NCBI GenBank assembly: GCA_017412025.1
Contig: JAFQOY010000241.1
Coordinates: 1-29,824 of the forward strand
Length of the DNA: 29,824 nucleotides
DNA from: Clostridia bacterium
Lineage (GTDB): Bacteria; Bacillota_A; Clostridia; Christensenellales; Aristaeellaceae
Reading direction: 5' to 3'
The notes below the pieces were generated by a model. The model had not been told where the DNA came from. It saw only the letters and a program-made list of their open reading frames with translations, and ran no database searches. Position numbers and translations under genes: made by a program. Each line of letters starts with the position of its first letter. Position 1 is the first letter of the stretch. This document shows, in pieces, positions 9,801 through 29,124 of the stretch.

Positions 9801-9860
9801 CGTTTCGTGCGTTCAAACACATATGAACGAGTAACCCAAAATCACAGGAGTGTGTTCACT

Positions 9861-11042
9861 ATGATGAGGAAGAAGCAATGCGTTGCCATGCTGCTGGCAG
9901 GCGGCCAGGGCAGCCGTCTGGGCATCCTGACCAAGAATGTGGCCAAACCGGCAGTTCCCTACGGCGGAAAGTATCGAATCATCGACTTCCCGCTCTCCAA
10001 CTGCACCAACTCCGGCATTGACGTTGTCGGCGTGCTGACCCAGTATCGCCCGCTCGAGCTCAACGCCTATATCGGCTCCGGCTCTCCGTGGGATCTTGAC
10101 CTGTCCAACGGCGGCGTTTACGTCCTCCCGCCGTATCATTCCGGCAAGACCGGCGAATGGTACAAGGGCACGGCCAACGCAATCTACCAGAACATTCCGT
10201 TCATCGCGCAGTGGGATCCGGAGTACGTTCTCGTGCTCTCCGGCGACCACATCTATAAGATGGACTACAACGCCATGCTGCAGTCCCACATCGCCAACGG
10301 CGCCGACCTGACCATCGCCGTGCGCGAAGTGCCGTGGGAAGAGGCTCCGCGCTTCGGCATCCTGAACACGGATGAGAACAACCAGATCACCGAGTTCGAA
10401 GAGAAGCCGAAGAACCCCAAGAGCAACAAGGCCTCCATGGGCGTGTACATCTTCTCCTGGAGCAAGATGCGCAAGTATCTGGAGCTGGATGAGGCCGACC
10501 CGAATTCCGAGAACGACTTCGGCAAGAACATCATTCCGAACATGCTCGCCGACAATCAGAAGCTCTTCACCTACACCTTCGACGGCTACTGGAAGGACGT
10601 GGGCACCATCGAGTCCCTCTGGGAGGCCAACATGGACCTGCTGGAGATGCCGATGCCCATCGACCTGTACGACGCCCGCTGGCGCATCTATGCCCGTAAT
10701 CCGGGCATGCCGCCGCACTGCGTGGCCGACGGCGCGAAGGTCGTCAACTCCCTCATCACCGAAGGCTGCGAAGTCAAGGGCATTGTCAACCACAGCGTCC
10801 TGTTTGCGGGCGTGACGGTTGAGCCGGGCGCGGAAATCACCGATGCGGTCATCATGCCGGGCGCGGTCATCGAGCGCGGCGCCGTCGTCCGCAGGGCGAT
10901 CGTGGGCGAGAACGCGCACATCTGCGCCGGCGCCGTTGTCGGCGAAGAGACCGGCCTCATCGCGGTCATCGGCCCGAAGGCCGAGATCGCCTCTGGCGAG
11001 AAAGTTGCTGCCGGCGTTCAGATCGACGCCGATGCGCAGTAA
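9861..11042 (+). CDS. glgC: Glucose-1-phosphate adenylyltransferase, catalytic subunit
   Basis: This 393-residue enzyme makes ADP-glucose from ATP and glucose-1-phosphate, the committed step of glycogen synthesis. The nucleotidyltransferase motif [13 protein letters not shown] is at 12-24 with the following [20 protein letters not shown], the catalytic aspartate D129 is in [11 protein letters not shown], and [12 protein letters not shown] and [15 protein letters not shown] are family motifs. A left-handed beta-helix follows in the C-terminal third (repeated hexapeptides such as [15 protein letters not shown]). ATG 9861 is chosen because AGGAG lies 10 nt upstream; an ATG at codon 2 is possible, and an open frame from 9807 lacks an SD. 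glgD starts 14 nt after the stop. Confidence 0.96.
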
Positions 11043-11056
11043 GGAGGTACCTTCAC

Positions 11057-12175
11057 ATGAAAGACGTAATGGGTTTGATCTACACCGGTGAAAATGACAT
11101 TCATCTCGGTGAACTGACCAGCCAGCGCGCGGTTGCCGCGCTCCCGATCGCCGGTCGTTATCGCGTGATCGACTTCCAGCTCTCCTCCATGGTGCACACC
11201 GGCATCAAGAACGTCGGCGTCATCACCCAGAAGAACTATCAGTCCCTGATGGACCACATCGGCTCCGGCCGCGAGTGGGATCTGCACGGCAAGCAGGGTC
11301 TGTCCATCCTCCCGCCGTTCCTCACGCGCGAGAACATGGGCGTTTACTCCGGCCTGCTGACGGCGCTCAAGTCCAACAGCAACTTCCTCAAGCTCTCCAA
11401 GCAGGAGTACATCGTGGTGACCAACAGCCACACCGTCTACAACGCGGACTTCTCCGCCGCGCTCAAGCAGCACGAGGAGACCGAGGCTGACATCACCCTG
11501 GTCTACAGCAAGAACATGACCAGCACCGACACCGAGAACGCCACCTACATCTCCGTCGGCGAAGACAAGACCGTCTCCAAGATGGAAATCGGCCCGATGG
11601 TGCCCACCTGCGAGGGCGCGTTCATGAAGATCTACATCACCAGGCGCGAGCTGCTCCATCAGCTGGTGGAGGACGCCGCCGCCGCCGGCATGCAGGACTT
11701 CGACCGCGACGTCGTCCAGAAGTCCATCAACGACGGCAGCCTGAAGATCTGCGGCTACGAGTACGACGACCTGGCCGCCCAGATCGACTCCATCCAGTCC
11801 TACTTCAACTTCAACATGTCTCTGCAGGATGATACTGTGCGCCGCCAGCTGTTCCCGAAGGATCGCCCGGTGTACACCAAGGTCCGCGACGATATGCCGG
11901 CCCGCTACAACGAAGAGGGCAAGGCTTCCAACTCCCTGGTCGGCAACGGCTGCATCATCGAAGGCACCGTCATCAACTCCATCCTCTTCCGCGGCGTCAA
12001 GGTCGCCAAAGGTGCGGTTGTGAAGAACTCCATCGTCATGCAGGACGCCCAGATCCAGAGCGGCGCGGAAATCGACCACTGCATCCTCGATAAGCAGAGC
12101 GTCATCCGCCGCAACGGCCGCCTGATTGCGCCCGCGGCATATCCGATTGTGATCGCCAAGAACGTCGTGATCTAA
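11057..12175 (+). CDS. glgD: Glucose-1-phosphate adenylyltransferase regulatory subunit GlgD
   Basis: This 372-residue GlgC paralogue is typical of Bacillota and pairs with GlgC to form a hetero-oligomeric pyrophosphorylase. It keeps the fold (GRYRVIDFQLSSM, a C-terminal beta-helix with NSILFRGVKVAKGAVVKNS) but the glycine-rich ATP loop is replaced by GELTSQRAVAALPIAGR and the SGDH aspartate motif by TNSHTV, so it is probably not catalytic by itself. This agrees with the known regulatory role of GlgD. It has a very strong AAGGAGG SD. The same operon continues to glgA, but a terminator-like hairpin intervenes. Confidence 0.95.
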   Translation: MKDVMGLIYTGENDIHLGELTSQRAVAALPIAGRYRVIDFQLSSMVHTGIKNVGVITQKNYQSLMDHIGSGREWDLHGKQGLSILPPFLTRENMGVYSGLLTALKSNSNFLKLSKQEYIVVTNSHTVYNADFSAALKQHEETEADITLVYSKNMTSTDTENATYISVGEDKTVSKMEIGPMVPTCEGAFMKIYITRRELLHQLVEDAAAAGMQDFDRDVVQKSINDGSLKICGYEYDDLAAQIDSIQSYFNFNMSLQDDTVRRQLFPKDRPVYTKVRDDMPARYNEEGKASNSLVGNGCIIEGTVINSILFRGVKVAKGAVVKNSIVMQDAQIQSGAEIDHCILDKQSVIRRNGRLIAPAAYPIVIAKNVVI

Positions 12176-12252: not shown

Positions 12253-14022
12253 ATGAAGATTTTGTTTGCAGCGTCCGAGTGCGTCCCGTTTATCAAGACC
12301 GGCGGCCTGGCCGACGTTGTCGGCGCGCTCTCTCCGGTGCTCAAGCAGCAGGGCGTCGACGTCCGCGTCATCATCCCGCTGTATGCGTCCATCCCGGAAA
12401 AGTGGACTTCCCAGATGAAGCAGGAGTGCGAGTTTGAGGTTGAGCTGTGCTGGCGCAAGCAGTACTGCGGCATCAAGTCCCTGGAGTATCAGGGCGTCAC
12501 CTTCTACTTCGTCGACAACCAGTTCTACTTCGGCCGCAGCTACATCTACGGCCTGGGCGGCGACGAGTATGAGCGCTTCGGCTTCTTCAGCCGCGCGGTC
12601 ATCGACGCGCTCCCGCACCGTAAATTCCAGCCCGACATCATCCACTGCCACGACTGGCAGACCGGCATGGTTCCGGCGCTGCTGAAGATCCAGTACGCGC
12701 ACTTCCCGTTCTATCAGAACATGAAGACCGCCTATACCATCCACAACCTGCAGTATCAGGGCGTGTTCCCGATCAAGGCCGTGCAGGATACCCTGGGCCT
12801 GGGCGACAGCCTGTTCACCTCCGATAAGCTGGAGTGCTACGGCTGCGCCAACTACATGAAGGCCGGCCTCGTCTATGCCGACGAGCTGACCACCGTCTCC
12901 CCGAGCTATTCTGACGAGATCCAGACCGCGTTCTACGGCGAGCGTCTGGACGGCCTGCTCCGCGCGCGCAAGGATCAGCTCTCCGGCATCCTCAACGGCA
13001 TCGATATCGACGATTATGATCCGTCCAAGGATCCGATGATCTACGCCAACTACGACGCCTATCACCTGGGCGGCAAGGAAGTCTGCAAGGCCGAGCTGCA
13101 GAAGGAACTGGGCCTTGACGTCGATCCCGACGCGCCGGTCGTGGGCATCATCTCCCGTCTCTCCAACCAGAAGGGCCTGGATCTTATCGAGTGCGTCATC
13201 CGCGAACTGATGGACACCGGTATCCAGCTGGTCGTGCTGGGCATGGGCGAGGCGAAGTACACCAATCTCTTCTCCTGGGCGGAGAGCGAGTATCCGGGCC
13301 GCCTGGCTGCGCGCTTTGCCATGAATCATCAGCTTGCGCACCGCATCTATGCCGGCGCGGACATGTTCCTCATGCCCAGCCAGTTTGAGCCGTGCGGCCT
13401 GTCCCAGCTGATCGCCCTGCGCTACGGCACCGTGCCGATCGTGCGCGAGACCGGCGGCCTGCGCGACACCGTGCTCTCCTACAACAAGTTCACCGACGAA
13501 GGCAACGGCTTCTCCTTCTTCAACTACAACGCGCACGACATGCTCCACACTGTCCGCCGCGCTGTGCACTACTACAAGAACAACCGCGAGGTCTGGTACA
13601 AGCTGATCGTGCGCGGCATGGAGGGCGACTACAGCTGGACCGCCTCCGCCGCCAAGTATCTGGAGATGTACACCAGGCTTGCCGCTGCGGCTGAAGAAGC
13701 CGAAGAGGCCGCCGAGGAAACCGTAAACCCTAACGAAGCCCCGGTCATCGCAGAAGCTCCGGCCGCTGCGCCGGCTGAAGAAGCGCCGGCTGCCGCGCCG
13801 AAGAAGCGCGCCCCGCGCAAGAAGGCGGAGCCGAAGGCCGAGGCTGAAGAAGCGCCCAGGAAGCGCACCACGAAGAAGGCTGCCGCGAAAGCCGAAGAGA
13901 CCGCCGAGGCGCCCAAGAAGACCACCCGTAAGAAGGCCGCCCCGAAGGCGGAAGCCGCTGAGCAGGCGCCCAAGAAGCGCGCTCCGCGCAAGAAGAAGGC
14001 CGAGGAAGCCCCGGCCGAATAA
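12253..14022 (+). CDS. glgA: Glycogen synthase with lysine/alanine-rich repeat tail
   Basis: A 589-residue GT5 glycogen synthase that transfers glucose from ADP-glucose to growing alpha-1,4-glucan. The catalytic part (1 to about 475) is complete: K15-TGGL near the N-terminus for ADP-glucose binding, IIHCHDWQTG, GIISRLSNQKG, and E379 in PSQFEPCGLSQL. GlgA is usually about 475-480 residues. Here about 113 extra residues follow: an Ala/Glu-rich linker (477-515) and four repeats of about 19 residues rich in Lys, Arg, Ala and Pro (516-589), resembling histone H1 or bacterial Hc1/AlgP-type basic tails. The ATG at 12253 follows AAGGAGG; the terminator-like hairpin ends just before it. The extension is in frame with no sequence break. 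Its function is unknown; binding of nucleic acid, polyphosphate or partner proteins is speculation. Confidence 0.95.
   Translation: MKILFAASECVPFIKTGGLADVVGALSPVLKQQGVDVRVIIPLYASIPEKWTSQMKQECEFEVELCWRKQYCGIKSLEYQGVTFYFVDNQFYFGRSYIYGLGGDEYERFGFFSRAVIDALPHRKFQPDIIHCHDWQTGMVPALLKIQYAHFPFYQNMKTAYTIHNLQYQGVFPIKAVQDTLGLGDSLFTSDKLECYGCANYMKAGLVYADELTTVSPSYSDEIQTAFYGERLDGLLRARKDQLSGILNGIDIDDYDPSKDPMIYANYDAYHLGGKEVCKAELQKELGLDVDPDAPVVGIISRLSNQKGLDLIECVIRELMDTGIQLVVLGMGEAKYTNLFSWAESEYPGRLAARFAMNHQLAHRIYAGADMFLMPSQFEPCGLSQLIALRYGTVPIVRETGGLRDTVLSYNKFTDEGNGFSFFNYNAHDMLHTVRRAVHYYKNNREVWYKLIVRGMEGDYSWTASAAKYLEMYTRLAAAAEEAEEAAEETVNPNEAPVIAEAPAAAPAEEAPAAAPKKRAPRKKAEPKAEAEEAPRKRTTKKAAAKAEETAEAPKKTTRKKAAPKAEAAEQAPKKRAPRKKKAEEAPAE
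13798..14019 (+). repeat. Four tandem 57-bp degenerate repeats encoding the GlgA tail
   Basis: Repeat units start at 13798, 13855, 13912 and 13969 (the last is 51 bp). They encode PKKRAPRKKAEPKAEAEEA, PRKRTTKKAAAKAEETAEA, PKKTTRKKAAPKAEAAEQA and PKKRAPRKKKAEEAPAE. Each has a basic half (K/R) followed by an Ala/Glu half. The period is exactly 19 codons for three units, evidence of tandem duplication. Confidence 0.85.
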
Positions 14023-14148: not shown

Positions 14149-15927
14149 ATGGCTTTGATTCAAAAGCATCCCCGGCTGATCACTGCCCTGTCCATCATCA
14201 TGACCGCAGTGGCAGCCCCCTTTCTGATTCCCGAAAATCCGGACAGCGCCGTCTACCGCACAGGTACGCTCTGCGTTCTTCTGCTCTTTGGCTGCATGCA
14301 GCCCGTCTGGTATGCGCTGACGCATGCCGACAGGCGCACGCTGTTTGCAGGCATATGCTGGGGCTTTCTGTTTTCCTGCGCGCTGAGCATCGGTTCCGAG
14401 CTGTTCTTCTATGACGGCCTCCTCAAGGATCCCAGCAGCCTGCCGCGCCGTTTTTCCGTTCCGTTTCTGATGACCCCGATGCTGGGTATTCTCTCCACCC
14501 GCCTGATGATTATCCGGCGCGGCAAAACCCGGCAGCCGACGCAGATTCCGTATTTTGTCTTTTTTGCCGCCATCATGCTCATGTGGCTGCCCGTGCTGCT
14601 GGGGCATTATCCGGGCATGCTCAACTACGATTTCGTCGGCGAGTATTCCCAGCATCTGCAAAAGTCCTATTCCAACATCCATCCGCTGCTGCACAGCGCC
14701 GTCATGAACGGCATCATCAGCATCGGAGAACGTATGGGAGATCCGACGCTCGGCGTGCTGCTGATGTCGCTGTTCCAGATGGTGGCTTTTGCCGCAGCGC
14801 TTTCCTACGGCTGCACATTTGCCCAGAGGCACGGAGCGCCGCTGTGGTCGCTGGTGCTGATGACGCTGTTTTTCGGCCTCCATCCCATCTTCGCCGCACT
14901 GTCCGTCTCCATGACCAAGGATACGCTCTTTTCCGCCGCCGTGGTCGCGCTCTCTCTTCAGGTCTTTGAGATCATCGAGGATCCCTCCGCTTATTTGGCC
15001 AGGAAGCGCAATTGGGCGCTGTTCATCTTCCTGATGATTAACACGGCGCTCATGCGCAACAACGGCATCTTTGCGCTCGCGCTGATGCTGCCCGCCCTGC
15101 TCCTGACCGCAAAGGGATACAGAAAGCAGGTCATCCTGCTCTGCGGCTCCGGCGCGCTCGCGTCCGTTCTGGTTTTCTCCGGCCTGTCCGCCGTCTATCA
15201 GCCTGAAACGATGCCCTCCTTCCAGCTCTACAGTCTTCCGGCGCAGCAGCTTGTGCGCGCCTACAATCTGGGCGACATGACGGATGAAGAACGCGCGGAG
15301 CTTGAAGGCTGGTACACTTCCGAAAACGGCCTGATCCTTTATCCGCATCTGGCAGACGGCGCAAAGGGCTATCTGGATCGTCCTCGCCTTCAGATTGAAG
15401 GCGAGAAGTTCCTTGACCTGTGGAACCGCGTCGGAGAGCGCAATGCGCATGAATATGCCGAAGCGCTGCTGATGCTCAACATCGGTTCCTGGTATCCTGA
15501 CGATCTGACGCATTCCATCATCTATCCGGATCACAGATGGCGGAATATGGGCTATCTGCAGACAGACGATCAGGATATGTCCGAATACGGCATCATCAGC
15601 CGGAATATTCTGCCCTCCGTCGAGAGATTCTATCAAAAGATCTGTCACAACAACGAGTATCAGAAGTATCCGCTGATCACGCTGCTGTTCTGCACGGCGA
15701 CGCCATTCTGGGTCATCCTTTTCAGCTGCGCGCTTCTGTGCGCGCGCAGGCAGAGCCGCCTGCTTCCGGGCACGCTCGGCGCGCTGGGGCTGTGGCTCTC
15801 CTATCTGTTCGGCCCCTGCACGCTGCCGCGCTATACGCTGCCGCTGTTCTGCCTTGCGCCCGTGCTTCTGATCACAGCGCTGTGCCTTCCTGCGCTGAAC
15901 AAGACAGGAAAGGAGCTGGCCCCATGA
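14149..15927 (+). CDS. Polytopic membrane protein, DUF6020-like (copy 1)
   Basis: A 592-residue integral membrane protein with about 11-13 hydrophobic segments, starting near residues 10-30, and a C-terminal group at about 530-590. A soluble region at about 350-510 is probably extracytoplasmic. The pattern HYPGMLNYDFVGEY, then HPLLHSAVMNG, MTKDTLF, and ALMRNNG matches what I recall of the DUF6020 family, whose plan resembles GT-C glycosyltransferases with an Asp-bearing first loop. A role in cell-surface polysaccharide or lipid glycosylation is inferred from that likeness. The ATG has AAGGAG 5 nt upstream. It overlaps the second copy by ATGA. The shared motifs with copy 2 show a tandem duplication. 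Confidence 0.75.
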   Translation: MALIQKHPRLITALSIIMTAVAAPFLIPENPDSAVYRTGTLCVLLLFGCMQPVWYALTHADRRTLFAGICWGFLFSCALSIGSELFFYDGLLKDPSSLPRRFSVPFLMTPMLGILSTRLMIIRRGKTRQPTQIPYFVFFAAIMLMWLPVLLGHYPGMLNYDFVGEYSQHLQKSYSNIHPLLHSAVMNGIISIGERMGDPTLGVLLMSLFQMVAFAAALSYGCTFAQRHGAPLWSLVLMTLFFGLHPIFAALSVSMTKDTLFSAAVVALSLQVFEIIEDPSAYLARKRNWALFIFLMINTALMRNNGIFALALMLPALLLTAKGYRKQVILLCGSGALASVLVFSGLSAVYQPETMPSFQLYSLPAQQLVRAYNLGDMTDEERAELEGWYTSENGLILYPHLADGAKGYLDRPRLQIEGEKFLDLWNRVGERNAHEYAEALLMLNIGSWYPDDLTHSIIYPDHRWRNMGYLQTDDQDMSEYGIISRNILPSVERFYQKICHNNEYQKYPLITLLFCTATPFWVILFSCALLCARRQSRLLPGTLGALGLWLSYLFGPCTLPRYTLPLFCLAPVLLITALCLPALNKTGKELAP

Positions 15928-17690
15928 TCGTTTCTTTCATCCGGAAACACAGCCGGTTCTTCACGCTGGGTGCAGTGCTTTGCGCCTGCTTTGCCGCGCC
16001 ATATCTGGTGCCGACCGACCCAGACAGTCAGGTGTTCCGTTCCGGCTCTCTGGGCGCTATCCTGCTGCTCTTCTGCGCATTCCCCATCGAGGAAGCCGTC
16101 AAGCGGCACAGTCTGCGTTCGCTGATCTACGGCGCCTGCTTTGCGCTCATCTATGCGATGTGCCTGGGCGTCGGCAGTGAGATGGCGTTTTACGGCGGTC
16201 TTCTGCCCGGCTGCAGCAGCATGCTGCGCCGCATTGCTGTGCCCCTCATGATCACGCCCTTCATCGGCTGCCTGATTTCCTATCCTTTTGAATACTCGCG
16301 CAGCATCAGCAAATCCCGCTTCCGGATTCCCTGGTATATCTTCTTTGTGCTGTTTGCAGCCACCTATACTGCCGCACTGCTGGCGATGTATCCCGGTATC
16401 CTCAATTATGACTTTGAGTTCGAAATCATTCAGTACCAGACAGGGGTTTACGAGGCGAAGCATCCCGTATTCCACTCGATGCTCACCGGCGTGCTCTTTC
16501 AGCTGGGCGAAACGCTCTTTGGTTCCTTTACCGCCGGCGCAGCCACGTACAGCGTGTTTCAGATTCTGTGCATGGCCGCTATGTACACATACGTCTGCTG
16601 TTTTGTGCAAAAACGCGTGCCGATGTTCATGACCATGCTGCTGACCGCAGGCTTCGCCTTCCTTCCCTTTCACCATGTGCTGGCAATTTCCACCATCAAG
16701 GATACGCTCTTTGCCGGACTGACGACTGTCCTGTGCGTCATGCTCTGGGAAATCGCCGAAGAACCCGACGTCTTCCTCCAAAACCGCAGAAAGCAGGCTT
16801 TTCTCATCGTATTCTGTCTGCTGGCTGCACTGCTGAGGCATAATGCTGCGTTTGTCTACATTCCCGTATGCCTTTCCATTCTGTTTCTGTGCAGGAGCAG
16901 GCGCCGCTTCGCGCTTATTCTGTGCGCGCTGACGCTCGTCGTCTGTACCGCCGTTCCCAAGTCGCTCGAACTTGCCGTAGATGCGGAAGAAGCGCCGAGC
17001 TCCGAGCTGCTGAGCGTACCCGGACAGCAGATCTTCCGGACGGCAGAATACGCCGACCTGCCCCAGGACGAATACCTGGAAATCAACCGCTGGTTCTCCT
17101 ATGCCACCCATCGCTACCGTCCGCACTGCGCAGACCCGACAAAGGGCGGCAACTTTGACTACAGGCGGTATCAGAGCCAGCCGCAGGACTACTGGGCCAT
17201 GTACTTCAAGTACCTCAAAGAATATCCGCGCCTGTATCTGGAGGCATTCCTGGCCAACTGTCAGGGCCTGTGGCATCCGGACGATATCAGCCATGCGCAC
17301 TCCCTGAGCAGCGAGGAATGGGATTATGTCTACATGAAATCCGGCAACATCGTGCCGGAAGCAGCCGGCGTTATCGAGGAGAAATGCTATATTCCTGCCC
17401 TGCGCAATCTGATCAAGAGCGTTGCACACCATGCGCGCCACGAGAATATCCCGCTGCTTTCCCATCTGTTCCGGCCGTCATTCTACATCTTTGCGCTGCT
17501 TCTGGGCGTGATGATCGCCGTCAACAGAAAAGCAAAGTCCTTCATCCTGTGTACCCTGCCCGTCTGGGGCATATTCCTTTCCCTGCTCTTCTCCGCCGGC
17601 GTCATCATCCGCTATGCATACCCGATCATGGCCGCCGCGCCTGTGCTTTTCCTGCTGCTGTTCTTCTGCAAGCTGGATCACAAGGCCTGA
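15924..17690 (+). CDS. Polytopic membrane protein, DUF6020-like (copy 2)
   Basis: A 588-residue paralogue of the preceding protein with the same topology. Corresponding motifs line up: APYLVPTDPDSQVFRSG with copy 1's APFLIPENPDSAVYRTG, MYPGILNYDFEFEI, HPVFHSMLTGV, IKDTLFAG, LLRHNAAF and VPGQQIFR. The start ATG 15924 overlaps the stop of copy 1 (ATGA) and follows AAAGGAG; the frame is open further upstream but lies inside copy 1. Tight coupling implies equal production and perhaps a heteromeric pair. The gene ends 11 nt before a strong terminator. Function, as for copy 1, is unproven; a GT-C-like glycosyltransferase is the best guess. Confidence 0.75.
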   Translation: MIVSFIRKHSRFFTLGAVLCACFAAPYLVPTDPDSQVFRSGSLGAILLLFCAFPIEEAVKRHSLRSLIYGACFALIYAMCLGVGSEMAFYGGLLPGCSSMLRRIAVPLMITPFIGCLISYPFEYSRSISKSRFRIPWYIFFVLFAATYTAALLAMYPGILNYDFEFEIIQYQTGVYEAKHPVFHSMLTGVLFQLGETLFGSFTAGAATYSVFQILCMAAMYTYVCCFVQKRVPMFMTMLLTAGFAFLPFHHVLAISTIKDTLFAGLTTVLCVMLWEIAEEPDVFLQNRRKQAFLIVFCLLAALLRHNAAFVYIPVCLSILFLCRSRRRFALILCALTLVVCTAVPKSLELAVDAEEAPSSELLSVPGQQIFRTAEYADLPQDEYLEINRWFSYATHRYRPHCADPTKGGNFDYRRYQSQPQDYWAMYFKYLKEYPRLYLEAFLANCQGLWHPDDISHAHSLSSEEWDYVYMKSGNIVPEAAGVIEEKCYIPALRNLIKSVAHHARHENIPLLSHLFRPSFYIFALLLGVMIAVNRKAKSFILCTLPVWGIFLSLLFSAGVIIRYAYPIMAAAPVLFLLLFFCKLDHKA

Positions 17691-24415: not shown

Positions 24416-26380
24416 TCATTTCAGCCTGCCAAGCGCAAGCTCCGCCTCTTCGCCGCAGTGCGCCCACTCGCCCACATGATCCCATGAGACATAAAATCCC
24501 GCGCCATGGCTGCAGAACACGCTGCCCGGCGGATTTTTTTCATCTGCCAGCGGGCTGTAGCCGTTCTCTTTAACGATGGCCTCCTGGTTTTTGCACGGCG
24601 CATAGCGGTCAAAGCCGGAGGCAAGCCTGCCGTGTCCGCGCGTGGACGCGGCAAACTTCTGCGGATAATCCCAGAACGCTGCCGCCGTGCACGTGCCGCC
24701 CATGATGATCTCGTCATCTCTGTATTCAGGCGCGTCAAGCTCCGCGCCGAGGCGAAGCAGTTCGCCTGTCACGCGGCTGAGACATTCCTGATGAAACGCC
24801 AGCTCAAACCGGACGACCGGCTCAAGAAGCACGTTCTGCGCATGCATCAATGCATTCCGGATTGCGCGGTACGTCGCCTCTCTGAAATCGCCGCCCTCCG
24901 TGTGCTTGAGATGCGCTCTGCCTGCAATCAGCTCCACACACACATCCGTCAGCGCGCTGCCGGTCAATACGCCCGGATGCACGCGCTCGCTCACATGGCC
25001 GGCAATCAGCCTGCGCCAGTTGAGATCGAGCGTGTTGGGCGCGCACGCGTCCCTGAATCTCACGCCGCTGCCCGGCTCGCCCGGCACAAGCCGCAGCCAT
25101 GCCTCGGCATAATGGCGCAGCGGCTCATAATGCCCAACGCCCACCGCAGGCGCGGCGATCGTCTCTTTATAGATGACTTTGGGCGGCAGAAACTCCACCT
25201 CGTCTGCAAACCTGTCGCGCAGGATGCTGCCCAGCACCTCAATCTGCACGGCGCCCATAATGCCCACGGACAAGCGTCCGTTTTCTGCACGTACGCTGAG
25301 CAGCGGATCCTCTTCCTCCAGCTCCCGCAGGTGCAGCAGCAGCTTCGTGCGGTCAAGCGCCCCTTTCGGCGTCACATCCACGCTCATCAGCGGCACAATC
25401 TGCTGCTGTTTTACGCCCGGCTCTGCGCCGATCTGCTCGCCCGGCCTGCAGGAAAGCCCCGTGACCACCGCCGTCTGTCCGGCGCAAACTGCGGAAACCG
25501 GCGTCAGCTTCCCGCCCTGCGCGCTGCAGATCGCGTTGACCTTCTGCGCGCCGTCCTTCGTCGCGACGTCCTCCCTCGCCGTCAGGCTGCCGGAAAGCGC
25601 CTTGATGTAGCAATAACGCATGCCGTCAATGCGGCGTACACGGTACACCTTCGCACAGAACGGCTCCTTCAGCTTCTGATCATAATCCGTCGCAAACAGC
25701 GACGCAATCGCTTCTTCCAGTTGGTCAATGCCCTGATCGGCAAGCGCGCTGCCCGGAAGCACCGGATACAGCTGCCCGGCCTTCATCGCGCGCTGTGCGC
25801 CAAGCAGATAATCCTGCGCCCCGGCTTCCTCCATCAGGTGCAGTTCCATGAGTTCCTCGTCGCGCATGGCCAGCTCTTCACGAAGCGCCTCTGTCTCCTG
25901 CGTCATCAGCGCGCAATCAGGCGACAGCAGGCGCTGCATCTGCTCCATCACCCTATATACGTCCGCACCCTCGCGGTCCGTCTTGTTGAGGAAGATGATC
26001 GTCGGAATTCCCCTGTCCTTCAGCAGACGAAACAGCGTCACGGTATGGCTCTGCACGCCCTCCGCGCAGGAGACGACAAGCAGCGCGCCGTCGAGCACCG
26101 ACAGCGCGCGCTCCATCTCACCCGAAAAGTCGACGTGACCCGGCGTATCCATCAGCGTCACACGAATGGTTTCGCCGTCGCTTCGCGCAAGCTCGATCGT
26201 CGCCTGCTCGCAGAAGATCGTGATGCCCCGCGCGCGCTCAAGCGCATGCCCGTCCATAAACGCATCGCCGTGATCCACACGGCCGCATCTGCGCAGCACG
26301 CCCGCATGCGCAAGCAGCTGCTCGCACAGCGTCGTCTTGCCTGCGTCGACATGCGCAGCCACGCCCAACGTCAGATTCAT
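24416..26380 (-). CDS. TetM/EF-G-like translational GTPase
   Basis: A 654-residue translational GTPase of the ribosomal protection protein group. The G motifs are AHVDAGKTT (9-17), RGIT (51-54), DTPGHVDF (78-85) and NKTDR (132-136); domains II to V follow. In TetM, domain IV loop III (YSPVS, about 506-510) enters the tetracycline site. At the matching place (about 490-500) this protein has HLKHTEGGDFREAT, and it ends in an extension with PPGSVFCSHGAGFYVSWD. It therefore belongs to a clostridial TetM-like branch, and tetracycline resistance should not be assumed. ATG 26380 follows GGAGG at short spacing. trmD lies 54 nt upstream in the same run. Confidence 0.87.
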   Translation of the reverse strand: MNLTLGVAAHVDAGKTTLCEQLLAHAGVLRRCGRVDHGDAFMDGHALERARGITIFCEQATIELARSDGETIRVTLMDTPGHVDFSGEMERALSVLDGALLVVSCAEGVQSHTVTLFRLLKDRGIPTIIFLNKTDREGADVYRVMEQMQRLLSPDCALMTQETEALREELAMRDEELMELHLMEEAGAQDYLLGAQRAMKAGQLYPVLPGSALADQGIDQLEEAIASLFATDYDQKLKEPFCAKVYRVRRIDGMRYCYIKALSGSLTAREDVATKDGAQKVNAICSAQGGKLTPVSAVCAGQTAVVTGLSCRPGEQIGAEPGVKQQQIVPLMSVDVTPKGALDRTKLLLHLRELEEEDPLLSVRAENGRLSVGIMGAVQIEVLGSILRDRFADEVEFLPPKVIYKETIAAPAVGVGHYEPLRHYAEAWLRLVPGEPGSGVRFRDACAPNTLDLNWRRLIAGHVSERVHPGVLTGSALTDVCVELIAGRAHLKHTEGGDFREATYRAIRNALMHAQNVLLEPVVRFELAFHQECLSRVTGELLRLGAELDAPEYRDDEIIMGGTCTAAAFWDYPQKFAASTRGHGRLASGFDRYAPCKNQEAIVKENGYSPLADEKNPPGSVFCSHGAGFYVSWDHVGEWAHCGEEAELALGRLK

Positions 26381-27793: not shown

Positions 27794-29062
27794 TCAATAT
27801 CTCCTCTTGGGCAGGTAAAACCGCCTGTTGCCAAAAACGTCCACAATCATGATGCAGGGTTCGCCCGCATATACGGGCATCTCCATCGTCACTTCCAGCT
27901 TCGGCGTGCCGACAGTCCGCACGCTGGAGATGCAGCTCCTGTATTCCTCGCCCTGCACAAAGCCCGCCGACCACTGATCCACCGCGTCCAGCCCGCTGAT
28001 ACCTGCCTCGCGCGCCTGCGGGCAATCAAACGAGATCAGATGCACCGTGTAGGAGCTGATCGCCGGAAAAACCTCCGCCTCCACCGTGCAGTCGTCTTCC
28101 CCGCAGGGAGAAAACACGTCGTAGCACACGCCCAGTGGCTTGCCCTTGGTCGTCTGATAGAGCCGCTTACCCGTCACAGCAATCGCCAGCGGACTCTGGT
28201 CAACGCTCAGAAACCTGCGGCCAAGCTGCGCAGCGGCTACCGCAGTCGTTCCGCTGCCGCCGAAGAGATCGCATACCAGATCGCCCTCCTGCGTTGAGCA
28301 GCGGATAATGCGTTCCAGCAGCCGGATCGGCTTCTGCGTGTCATAGCCTGTGCGCTGCGGATCCTTCTGCTGCAGATGGCTCACATCGTCCCACACGTCG
28401 CCCGGATAGGCGGGCTCGTCGTCGTAATATCTGTATTCCTTCCCGCCGGACATGATCGAGCGGTAGCTTCTTCCATCCTCGTCAACCCCGCGCTTCATGT
28501 GGTTGCTGCGCGCGTCATTGCGCCCAACGGGCACGGACTTGAGGCTGAAATAATACGAACGCGACTTGGCATAGAACAGGATAACGTCGTGCTTGCGCGG
28601 GAAATACGTGCGCGCCCGCCCGCCGGACTGATAGGACCAGATGATCTCGTTGAGGAAATTGCTCTCGCCAAATACCTCGTCCATCAGCAGCCGCATATGC
28701 GCATGCATCCGGCAGTCGATGTGCAGAAAGATCGTACCTTCCTTCTTCATCAGCGTGCGCGCAAGGATCAGCGTTTCACGCATCATGGTCAGATAGGCGT
28801 CCCTGTCCGGCCAGCGGTCGTCATAGGCGGGCAGAGAAAACGACGGCGAGCCGGTCTTGTAGCCCTTTTCGCCCACGCGAACCTTCATTTCGAACTGCTT
28901 GCCCGTATTGAACGGCGGATCCAGATACACCATCTGTACGGTACCGGCATACTTTTCAATCAGCTCCTGCGCGCATGCAGGCAGCGTGCCCTGAATCAGC
29001 GCGCCCATGCTCTCCCTGCCGGAATGGCGCTCCTGTGCGCAGCGGATATACGTCGCAGCCAT
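27794..29062 (-). CDS. Orphan site-specific DNA methyltransferase (N6-adenine or N4-cytosine)
   Basis: A 422-residue beta-class amino-methyltransferase (PF01555). Catalytic motif IV DPPF is at 48-51 (VYLDPPFNTGKQF), followed by a variable target-recognition region (about 140-235) and the SAM-binding motif I region CDLFGGSGTTAVAAAQLGRRF (264 onward). DPPF with this order suggests adenine methylation, but N4-cytosine cannot be excluded. About 120 residues after the core (300-422) form an extension I do not recognise. No restriction endonuclease is adjacent, so it looks like a solitary methyltransferase. The ATG at 29062 follows GGGGGAG; the promoter is at 29125-29153. It heads a six-gene run with trmD. 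Confidence 0.9.
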   Translation of the reverse strand: MAATYIRCAQERHSGRESMGALIQGTLPACAQELIEKYAGTVQMVYLDPPFNTGKQFEMKVRVGEKGYKTGSPSFSLPAYDDRWPDRDAYLTMMRETLILARTLMKKEGTIFLHIDCRMHAHMRLLMDEVFGESNFLNEIIWSYQSGGRARTYFPRKHDVILFYAKSRSYYFSLKSVPVGRNDARSNHMKRGVDEDGRSYRSIMSGGKEYRYYDDEPAYPGDVWDDVSHLQQKDPQRTGYDTQKPIRLLERIIRCSTQEGDLVCDLFGGSGTTAVAAAQLGRRFLSVDQSPLAIAVTGKRLYQTTKGKPLGVCYDVFSPCGEDDCTVEAEVFPAISSYTVHLISFDCPQAREAGISGLDAVDQWSAGFVQGEEYRSCISSVRTVGTPKLEVTMEMPVYAGEPCIMIVDVFGNRRFYLPKRRY

Positions 29063-29124
29063 ACTCTTTCTCCCCCGTTTTTCCTGTATTCGCTTGCAAA
29101 TTCTCATACAAAGCCTTATTGTAT

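Follow-up and report, generated by a model that had tools for sequence, protein, structure and literature searches.

A Lys/Arg-Ala-Pro repeat tail on the glycogen synthase of certain Clostridia and its possible role in holding glycogen to the nucleoid

Why should an enzyme that builds glycogen end in a long, repetitive stretch of Lys, Ala and Pro, of the kind met in nucleoproteins? The question is raised by a glgA gene in the window, i.e. the whole stretch of 29,824 nucleotides of a Clostridia bacterium that was analysed (60% GC). The gene belongs to a run of glycogen genes, with the following features:

9807..11042, plus strand: glgC, glucose-1-phosphate adenylyltransferase, opening the glgC-glgD-glgA run (NF003670, 598 bits against a cut-off of 470)
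11057..12175, plus strand: glgD, GlgD subunit (TIGR02092, 369 bits against a cut-off of 236.6)
12253..14022, plus strand: glgA, glycogen synthase with a C-terminal tail (589 aa, ATG start; NF001898)
12253..13680, plus strand: catalytic GT5 core of GlgA, residues 1-476 (delimited by the profile ends and a mostly high pLDDT)

By family and by fold, the glgA product has an ordinary ADP-glucose glycogen synthase core. It is a member of the NCBIfam equivalog NF001898 (687 bits, cut-off 603) and of Pfam PF08323 (293 bits, cut-off 22.7), and the best PDB match of its AlphaFold model, which has a GT-B fold, is the E. coli GlgA 2qzs (E 5e-46; 35% identity in the fold alignment). In the profile search, NF001898 stops at residue 477 and TIGR02095 at residue 475, in agreement with the preliminary description of this DNA, which had the core ending around residues 475-480 and the frame running on for about 113 residues. 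Elsewhere in the window are found two adjoining and overlapping frames located 3' of glgA (14149-17690, plus strand), both of the duplicated family DUF6020 (PF19484), as well as, on the minus strand, an EF-G-type GTPase of 654 aa with the domains GTP_EFTU, EFG_IV and EFG_C (24416-26380) and an N6_N4 DNA methylase (27794-29107; PF01555).

The tail spans residues 477-589 (113 aa, DNA 13681-14019) and consists of an acidic spacer followed by repeat units of the Lys/Arg-Ala-Pro type, with basic and acidic halves (hereafter KAP tail):

13681..13797, plus strand: acidic Ala/Glu/Pro spacer, residues 477-515 (from the translation; pLDDT below 50 from residue 491)
13798..13854, plus strand: repeat unit 1, 19 aa, PKKRAPRKKAEPKAEAEEA (translation and unit comparison)
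13855..13911, plus strand: repeat unit 2, 19 aa, PRKRTTKKAAAKAEETAEA (translation and unit comparison)
13912..13968, plus strand: repeat unit 3, 19 aa, PKKTTRKKAAPKAEAAEQA (translation and unit comparison)
13969..14019, plus strand: repeat unit 4, 17 aa, PKKRAPRKKKAEEAPAE (followed by the stop codon at 14020-14022)

The acidic linker and four units initially described are indeed present, with the correction that units 1-3 have the 19 residues announced and unit 4 has 17. Taken as a whole, the tail holds 26 K/R against 22 D/E (net +4), and its repeat part 26 against 12 (net +14); the charges are segregated 6.7 SD beyond same-letter shuffles, as in a block polyampholyte. Residues 491-586 have a pLDDT below 50 in the AlphaFold model and the tail is predicted to be disordered. 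The likeness to histone H1 put forward at the outset is apt in so far as the tail is basic, disordered and of the H1/AlgP kind, but the picture of a strongly basic tail is not supported, the net charge being only +4, or +14 in the repeat part. Lys/Ala/Pro-rich disordered repeats are a feature shared with nucleoproteins of the HC2 (PF07382) or AlgP type; a Pfam search with the tail gave no match at E<=1, HC2 included, and two relatives (P0248 and P0250) scored 25.8 and 27.4 bits against PF07382, below its cut-off of 40. For the window GlgA, Pfam returned glycosyltransferase domains only, with no phasin or PHB-binding N-terminal domain. An AT-hook is a GRP/RGR core within a basic patch, and this label was rejected for the window tail, which contains no Gly and has no Pfam match; RGRK occurs in the tails of some relatives only (L007, L020, L021, L054, L059 and P0077). 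An artefact of assembly or frame was likewise rejected as the source of the tail, because such a tail is present in 121/121 proteins when the window GlgA is taken together with the best 120 of 7,996 homologues scored (101-232 aa).

Regarding the history of the repeat, the four unit starts (13798, 13855, 13912 and 13969) are spaced by exactly 57 bp, and the autocorrelation of the repeat part is strongest at a DNA lag of 57 (0.577) and a protein lag of 19 (0.35), which bears out the exact period reported before. The recent tandem duplication that had been read from this period is not borne out by the sequence of the units: Tandem Repeats Finder did not call the 57-bp array in the window, the units are 59% identical at the DNA level, and the codons for residues that the units share are the same 35 times out of 50, the codon usage of the gene predicting 32.5. 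Given this divergence and a codon agreement near chance, recent duplication was rejected, and the array looks old and maintained in register. That copy number may vary between strains, as anticipated, is true of relatives: P0061, P0080 and P0083 share cores at 99.8-100% identity but differ in tail length (133, 158 and 108 aa) by steps of whole 25-aa units, with the proviso that repeat counts may be off where genomes are short-read assemblies. The tail measures 113 aa in each of P0002-P0005, four proteins nearly identical to that of the window.

Searching GlgA homologues for the tail and comparing repeat numbers, as the preliminary description had suggested, gave a tail in every member of the best-scoring set mentioned above, and a repeat number that varies among the near-identical relatives just described; summed over its full length, the tail has a net positive charge in 90 of these 121 proteins (median +5). 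Applying our own thresholds for tail classes (at least 40 aa and 8 K/R), a KAP tail of 49-189 aa was found in 56 of the 76 GlgAs with a complete C-terminus from 80 related loci, the remaining 20 having short ends; L015, L018, L019 and L041, with incomplete C-termini, were left out of this count and of the final tree. One of the 56 KAP tails, L068, was read in a shifted frame; this glgA end shows an Arg/Pro-rich frame with the usual KAP frame beside it, the gene being either truly frameshifted or wrongly sequenced there. The nearest relatives of the window GlgA come from gut and rumen MAGs labelled as Clostridia, Candidatus Ventricola or Christensenella. The order was sampled evenly (121 genomes, of which 93 have GlgA), and KAP tails were present in 7 of the 89 C-termini read, including that of the centre genome G001, those of G084, G032, G077 and G071 (4/93) being unread or cut. 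A sample of the class (148 genomes, 108 with GlgA) added seven KAP tails (L269-L275) to that of G001, all listed frames above 515 aa being read except the split ones of G183 and G147, and several GlgAs being cut by contig ends. A sample of the phylum (149 genomes, 76 with GlgA, all listed frames above 515 aa) gave no KAP tail except that of G001. The KAP tail is a trait of certain clades and not of GlgA generally, and its absence from 20/76 relatives together with its presence in only 7/89 of the order indicates that it is dispensable.

A second group of Clostridia came to light with the class-sample member L324, as 117 of its 120 listed homologues, among them Candidatus Ornithomonoglobus and a member of the Oscillospiraceae, have KAK/KAP tails, net positive in 117/117 (median +13). 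On a FastTree phylogeny of 201 GlgA cores, the KAP state changes at least 13 times and the helix-hairpin-helix (HhH) state described below at least 7 times, these counts being minima on a single tree with several joined long branches, where gain and loss are indistinguishable. Other C-terminal ends were seen along the way. The tail of L156 looks different: built of AAKKA/GAKKAAEG repeats over 131 aa, it may form a helix of the basic amphipathic or LEA-like kind instead of being KAP. Tail-less relatives (L033, L035, L048, L058, L061 and others) often end in an EPNPVVV[DE]I-like peptide that may bind a partner; a peptide of this type is kept at the start of the tail in L020, L023, L030, L031 and L034, and VNPNEAPV is comparable in the window GlgA. 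Among P0025-P0121, a conserved [KR]PATDFxL or RPVTEFRL peptide opens many of the tails right after the core.

Across the clade, the tail sequence drifts nearly freely with its overall plan retained. The second half is net positive in all 56 KAP tails of the related loci and the whole tail in 51 of them, and charge segregation over 57 tails has a median of 2.9 SD, exceeding 2 in 36/57. Counts in the KAP tails of the related loci were 66 for the motif K[KP][KR]x(1-2)R[KR] and 12 for RG[RP], with 2.2 and 1.0, respectively, in shuffles. Over 15 whole genomes, a codon motif of the K-R-[AT]-[PT]-R-K-K type matched 14 times, every time at a GlgA tail (reversed motif, 3); the KPKRTRKK type matched seven times, six times at a GlgA or GlgB tail in G009 or G010 and once elsewhere in G003 (reversed, 0); and the KKTTRKPA type matched twice, in the tail of a branching-enzyme-like protein of G001 and elsewhere in G013 (reversed, 1). 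Together, 21 of the 23 matches fall by position in tails of GlgA or of branching or branching-enzyme-like enzymes. A phmmer search of the 15 genomes with the tail letters returned three GlgA tails only, probably because of composition correction.

Genome stretches were also scanned by composition, a looser criterion. Over 638 kb of G001, ten rows were obtained. Five of them (L336, L347, L348, L360 and L362) are frames that are internal, short or doubtful; the others comprise GlgA together with a frame that overlaps the GlgA tail, the branching-enzyme-like protein, the PSP1-domain protein L357 with a long Lys/Glu/Arg-rich end, and L338, a YacP-like NYN protein whose Lys/Pro/Ala end is weaker. 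Over 400 kb of G010, the six rows were GlgA, GlgB, the PSP1-domain protein L372 with an Arg/Glu-rich end, L378, a family-4 glycosyl hydrolase whose end is mildly charged, L374 with a basic Arg-rich end and an internal frame (L368). The 1.07 Mb comprising the window, the glgA loci and some other stretches yielded no scoring protein but GlgA and two GlgBs, besides frames overlapping glgA tails. The motif matches and these scans rule out that KAP tails are a general feature of these proteomes and show the repeat-type KAP tail to be concentrated on glycogen-building enzymes, although basic tails of other kinds also occur outside this group. Long C-terminal repeats rich in Lys/Arg/Glu on a PSP1-domain protein were observed in both genomes scanned (L357 in G001, L372 in G010). 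The PSP1 and YacP-like NYN families are tied to RNA.

Which other glycogen enzymes are concerned? Among the 15 genomes, GlgA is tailed in 11 and a branching or branching-enzyme-like GH13 protein in 5, namely G001, G002 and, with a short tail, G003, as well as G009 and G010, where it is GlgB. The tailed GH13 protein of G001 (711 aa) combines CBM48, alpha-amylase and C-terminal domains. Its highest scores are with GlgB models, all under cut-off (best NF008967, 293 vs 577 bits), and it is called branching-enzyme-like because it lies below every NCBIfam branching-enzyme cut-off; this comparison covers the G001 protein, the same designation being applied to the proteins of G002 and G003. Clear GlgBs adjoining glgA in the 80 loci bear a KAP tail in 2/32 cases (L022 and L023, i.e. 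genomes G009 and G010), and a few further ones have short Lys-rich ends. No KAP tail was found in the 22 phosphorylase (GlgP) C-termini, of which two have short K-rich ends, nor in the 11 C-termini read of a GlgA paralogue of the same genomes (40-46% identical), and neither GlgC nor GlgD was flagged in the 1.07-Mb composition scan. A tail on all glycogen genes was ruled out on the basis of GlgP (0/22) and of the scan without GlgC or GlgD match. Besides, a second GlgA (40-45% identical) represented by L091-L096 (G003 C170, G001 C20, G005 C18, G004 C39, G014 C114 and G002 C96) has at its C-terminus an SCP2-type (sterol-transfer) domain, PF02036 (E about 1e-9; Pfam run on 2 of the 6), an unexpected lipid-binding fusion.

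A different C-terminal module was uncovered in other GlgAs. Two GlgAs of the phylum sample end in HHH_3 (PF12836; E 3.8e-20 and 1.2e-17), and 86 of the 120 homologues listed share such an HhH end (85 by a two-hairpin pattern and P0122 by PF12836), the other 34 lacking it. Carriers include Halothermothrix orenii (P0136) and Orenia metallireducens, both of the order Halanaerobiales, Halanaerobium praevalens (P0195) and Fuchsiella alkaliacetigena. The best solved matches of this domain are EEPD1 and ComEA (8dfk, E 4e-12), and among the 85 pattern-matched GlgAs of the homologues listed, 67 have a net positive charge in the hairpin region. In Halanaerobiales, the C-terminus of GlgA is often a ComEA-type HhH domain in place of the KAP tail. 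ComEA-type hairpins bind dsDNA, and HhH domains can bind proteins too.

Tentatively, and somewhat short of probable, GlgA may combine a synthase and an anchor, the tail tying glycogen to the nucleoid via predicted DNA binding. The GlgA core would sit on the growing glycogen particle, a location suggested by GlgA elsewhere, the acidic spacer would hold the disordered arm off the core, and the repeated basic patches would bind DNA without sequence preference. With many GlgA molecules per particle, many weak arms could jointly hold it to the nucleoid, so that particles would spread along the nucleoid and be shared between daughter cells, provided that such tethering and its benefit at division hold. 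The tailed GlgA would then be to glycogen what PhaF and PhaM are to PHB and AlgP is to polyphosphate, and the HhH domain of Halanaerobiales GlgA would play this part in the manner of PhaH. The preliminary description had offered a tether to the nucleoid, polyphosphate, ribosomes or a partner, or an ordering of the granule; the idea of a tether fits the type of tail, and the recurrence of HhH on GlgA together with KAP tails on branching enzymes makes the nucleoid the best of these options, DNA binding being predicted. Glycogen marked by GlgA-GFP gathers at the old poles of an E. coli csrA mutant, with the chromosome excluded (PMC4836754), a problem that a tether would solve. Counted against a DNA tether are the low net charge (+4 in the window; positive in 90/121 with a median of +5), the absence of a Pfam match for the tail and the 20/76 tail-less relatives, as well as the charged tails on RNA-type proteins and the protein binding of which HhH domains are capable.

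Disordered repeats rich in Lys discriminate little between polyanions, and the tail could instead bind polyphosphate or RNA/ribosomes, coupling glycogen making to polyphosphate granules or to a condensate of RNA or polyphosphate, a reading deemed rather unlikely. AlgP, the closest compositional analogue, sits on polyphosphate granules (PMC9239181), and PPK1, found in 14 of the 15 genomes, tailed and tail-less alike, makes polyphosphate available as a ligand. The other charged tails of G001 and G010, being on PSP1 and YacP-like NYN proteins of RNA families, lower the confidence in a DNA tether and raise this rival. It is countered by the nature of the alternative GlgA module, a ComEA-type HhH of the dsDNA-binding kind (for PhaH, see PMC13052382) and, for polyphosphate, by G011, which has a KAP tail of 126 aa (L036) but no PPK1 match in a possibly incomplete genome.

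Two further readings dispense with a nucleic acid or polyphosphate ligand. As a scaffold, the basic blocks would pair with the acidic spacers of adjacent GlgA or branching enzyme and gather them on the particle; the block polyampholyte character of the tail (z 6.7) suits this arrangement, as does the occurrence of tails on both the synthase and the branching or branching-like enzyme in G001-G003, G009 and G010, but branching enzymes are tailed in 5/15 genomes against 11/15 for GlgA and the replacement by HhH is left unexplained, which makes it improbable. A disordered extension close to neutral and prone to slippage, providing only bulk or solubility and with a composition stemming from GC-rich repeat turnover, is a quite improbable account of the tail: tail length and repeat number do differ between near-identical strains, 20/76 relatives are tail-less and the window is 60% GC, but the second half is basic in 56/56 tails, the motifs exceed shuffles 30 times and 21/23 matches concentrate on glycogen-building enzymes.

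Returning to the nucleoid anchor in its broadest form, it is possible rather than probable that the enzymes producing bacterial glycogen themselves include a tether of glycogen to the chromosome, with histone-like arms in at least two groups of Clostridia and HhH in Halanaerobiales, i.e. the same two solutions as for PHB, the particles being distributed along the nucleoid and passed to both daughter cells instead of gathering at a pole. Should GlgA be its own tether, glycogen, a carbon store widespread among bacteria, would join the list of placed inclusions, and the question of who inherits it would become testable. Halanaerobium praevalens and Halothermothrix orenii are in culture and, since both have an HhH-GlgA, testing is not tied to uncultured gut bacteria. 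A 2025 review of inclusion placement covering carboxysomes, magnetosomes, PHB and polyphosphate does not contain the word glycogen (PMC13052382), nor does the available text of a 2024 review of bacterial alpha-glucan enzymes contain nucleoid, DNA-binding or helix-hairpin-helix (PMC11046441). A literature search for a GlgA tail, a GlgA-HhH fusion or a glycogen tether, with subscription papers mostly outside its coverage, found none.

Compared with known systems, the window GlgA shares its family and core fold with the GT5 glycogen synthases, but the solved chain of E. coli 2qzs has 477 residues and is hence tail-less. The PHB-granule-nucleoid tethers reported in PMC13052382, PMC9239181 and PMC3574117 are either histone-like, namely PhaF and PhaM, or HhH proteins, namely PhaH. 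PhaF and PhaM join a granule-binding N-terminal part to a histone-like C-terminal part, described as unfolded and DNA-binding for PhaF (PMC3574117) and as binding DNA nonspecifically in a review, and the plan proposed for the window GlgA is alike. They differ in having a phasin domain where the window GlgA has a polymer-making enzyme, and the tails of the latter and its relatives are near neutral overall, with longer units (17-25 aa) including an acidic half. AlgP from Pseudomonas aeruginosa has, as in the window GlgA, a histone-H1-like disordered repeat tail on a granule protein, and its C-terminal part is required for polyphosphate granule spacing, but its units are of the KPAA type, its net charge is +55 (+35 for PhaF), its granule is polyphosphate and it has no enzyme domain (PMC9239181). 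As for PhaH, the Caulobacter PHB tether, its module is of the same type as the C-terminal domain of Halanaerobiales GlgA, although the polymer is PHB instead of glycogen and the likeness concerns relatives of the window GlgA, not the window GlgA itself.
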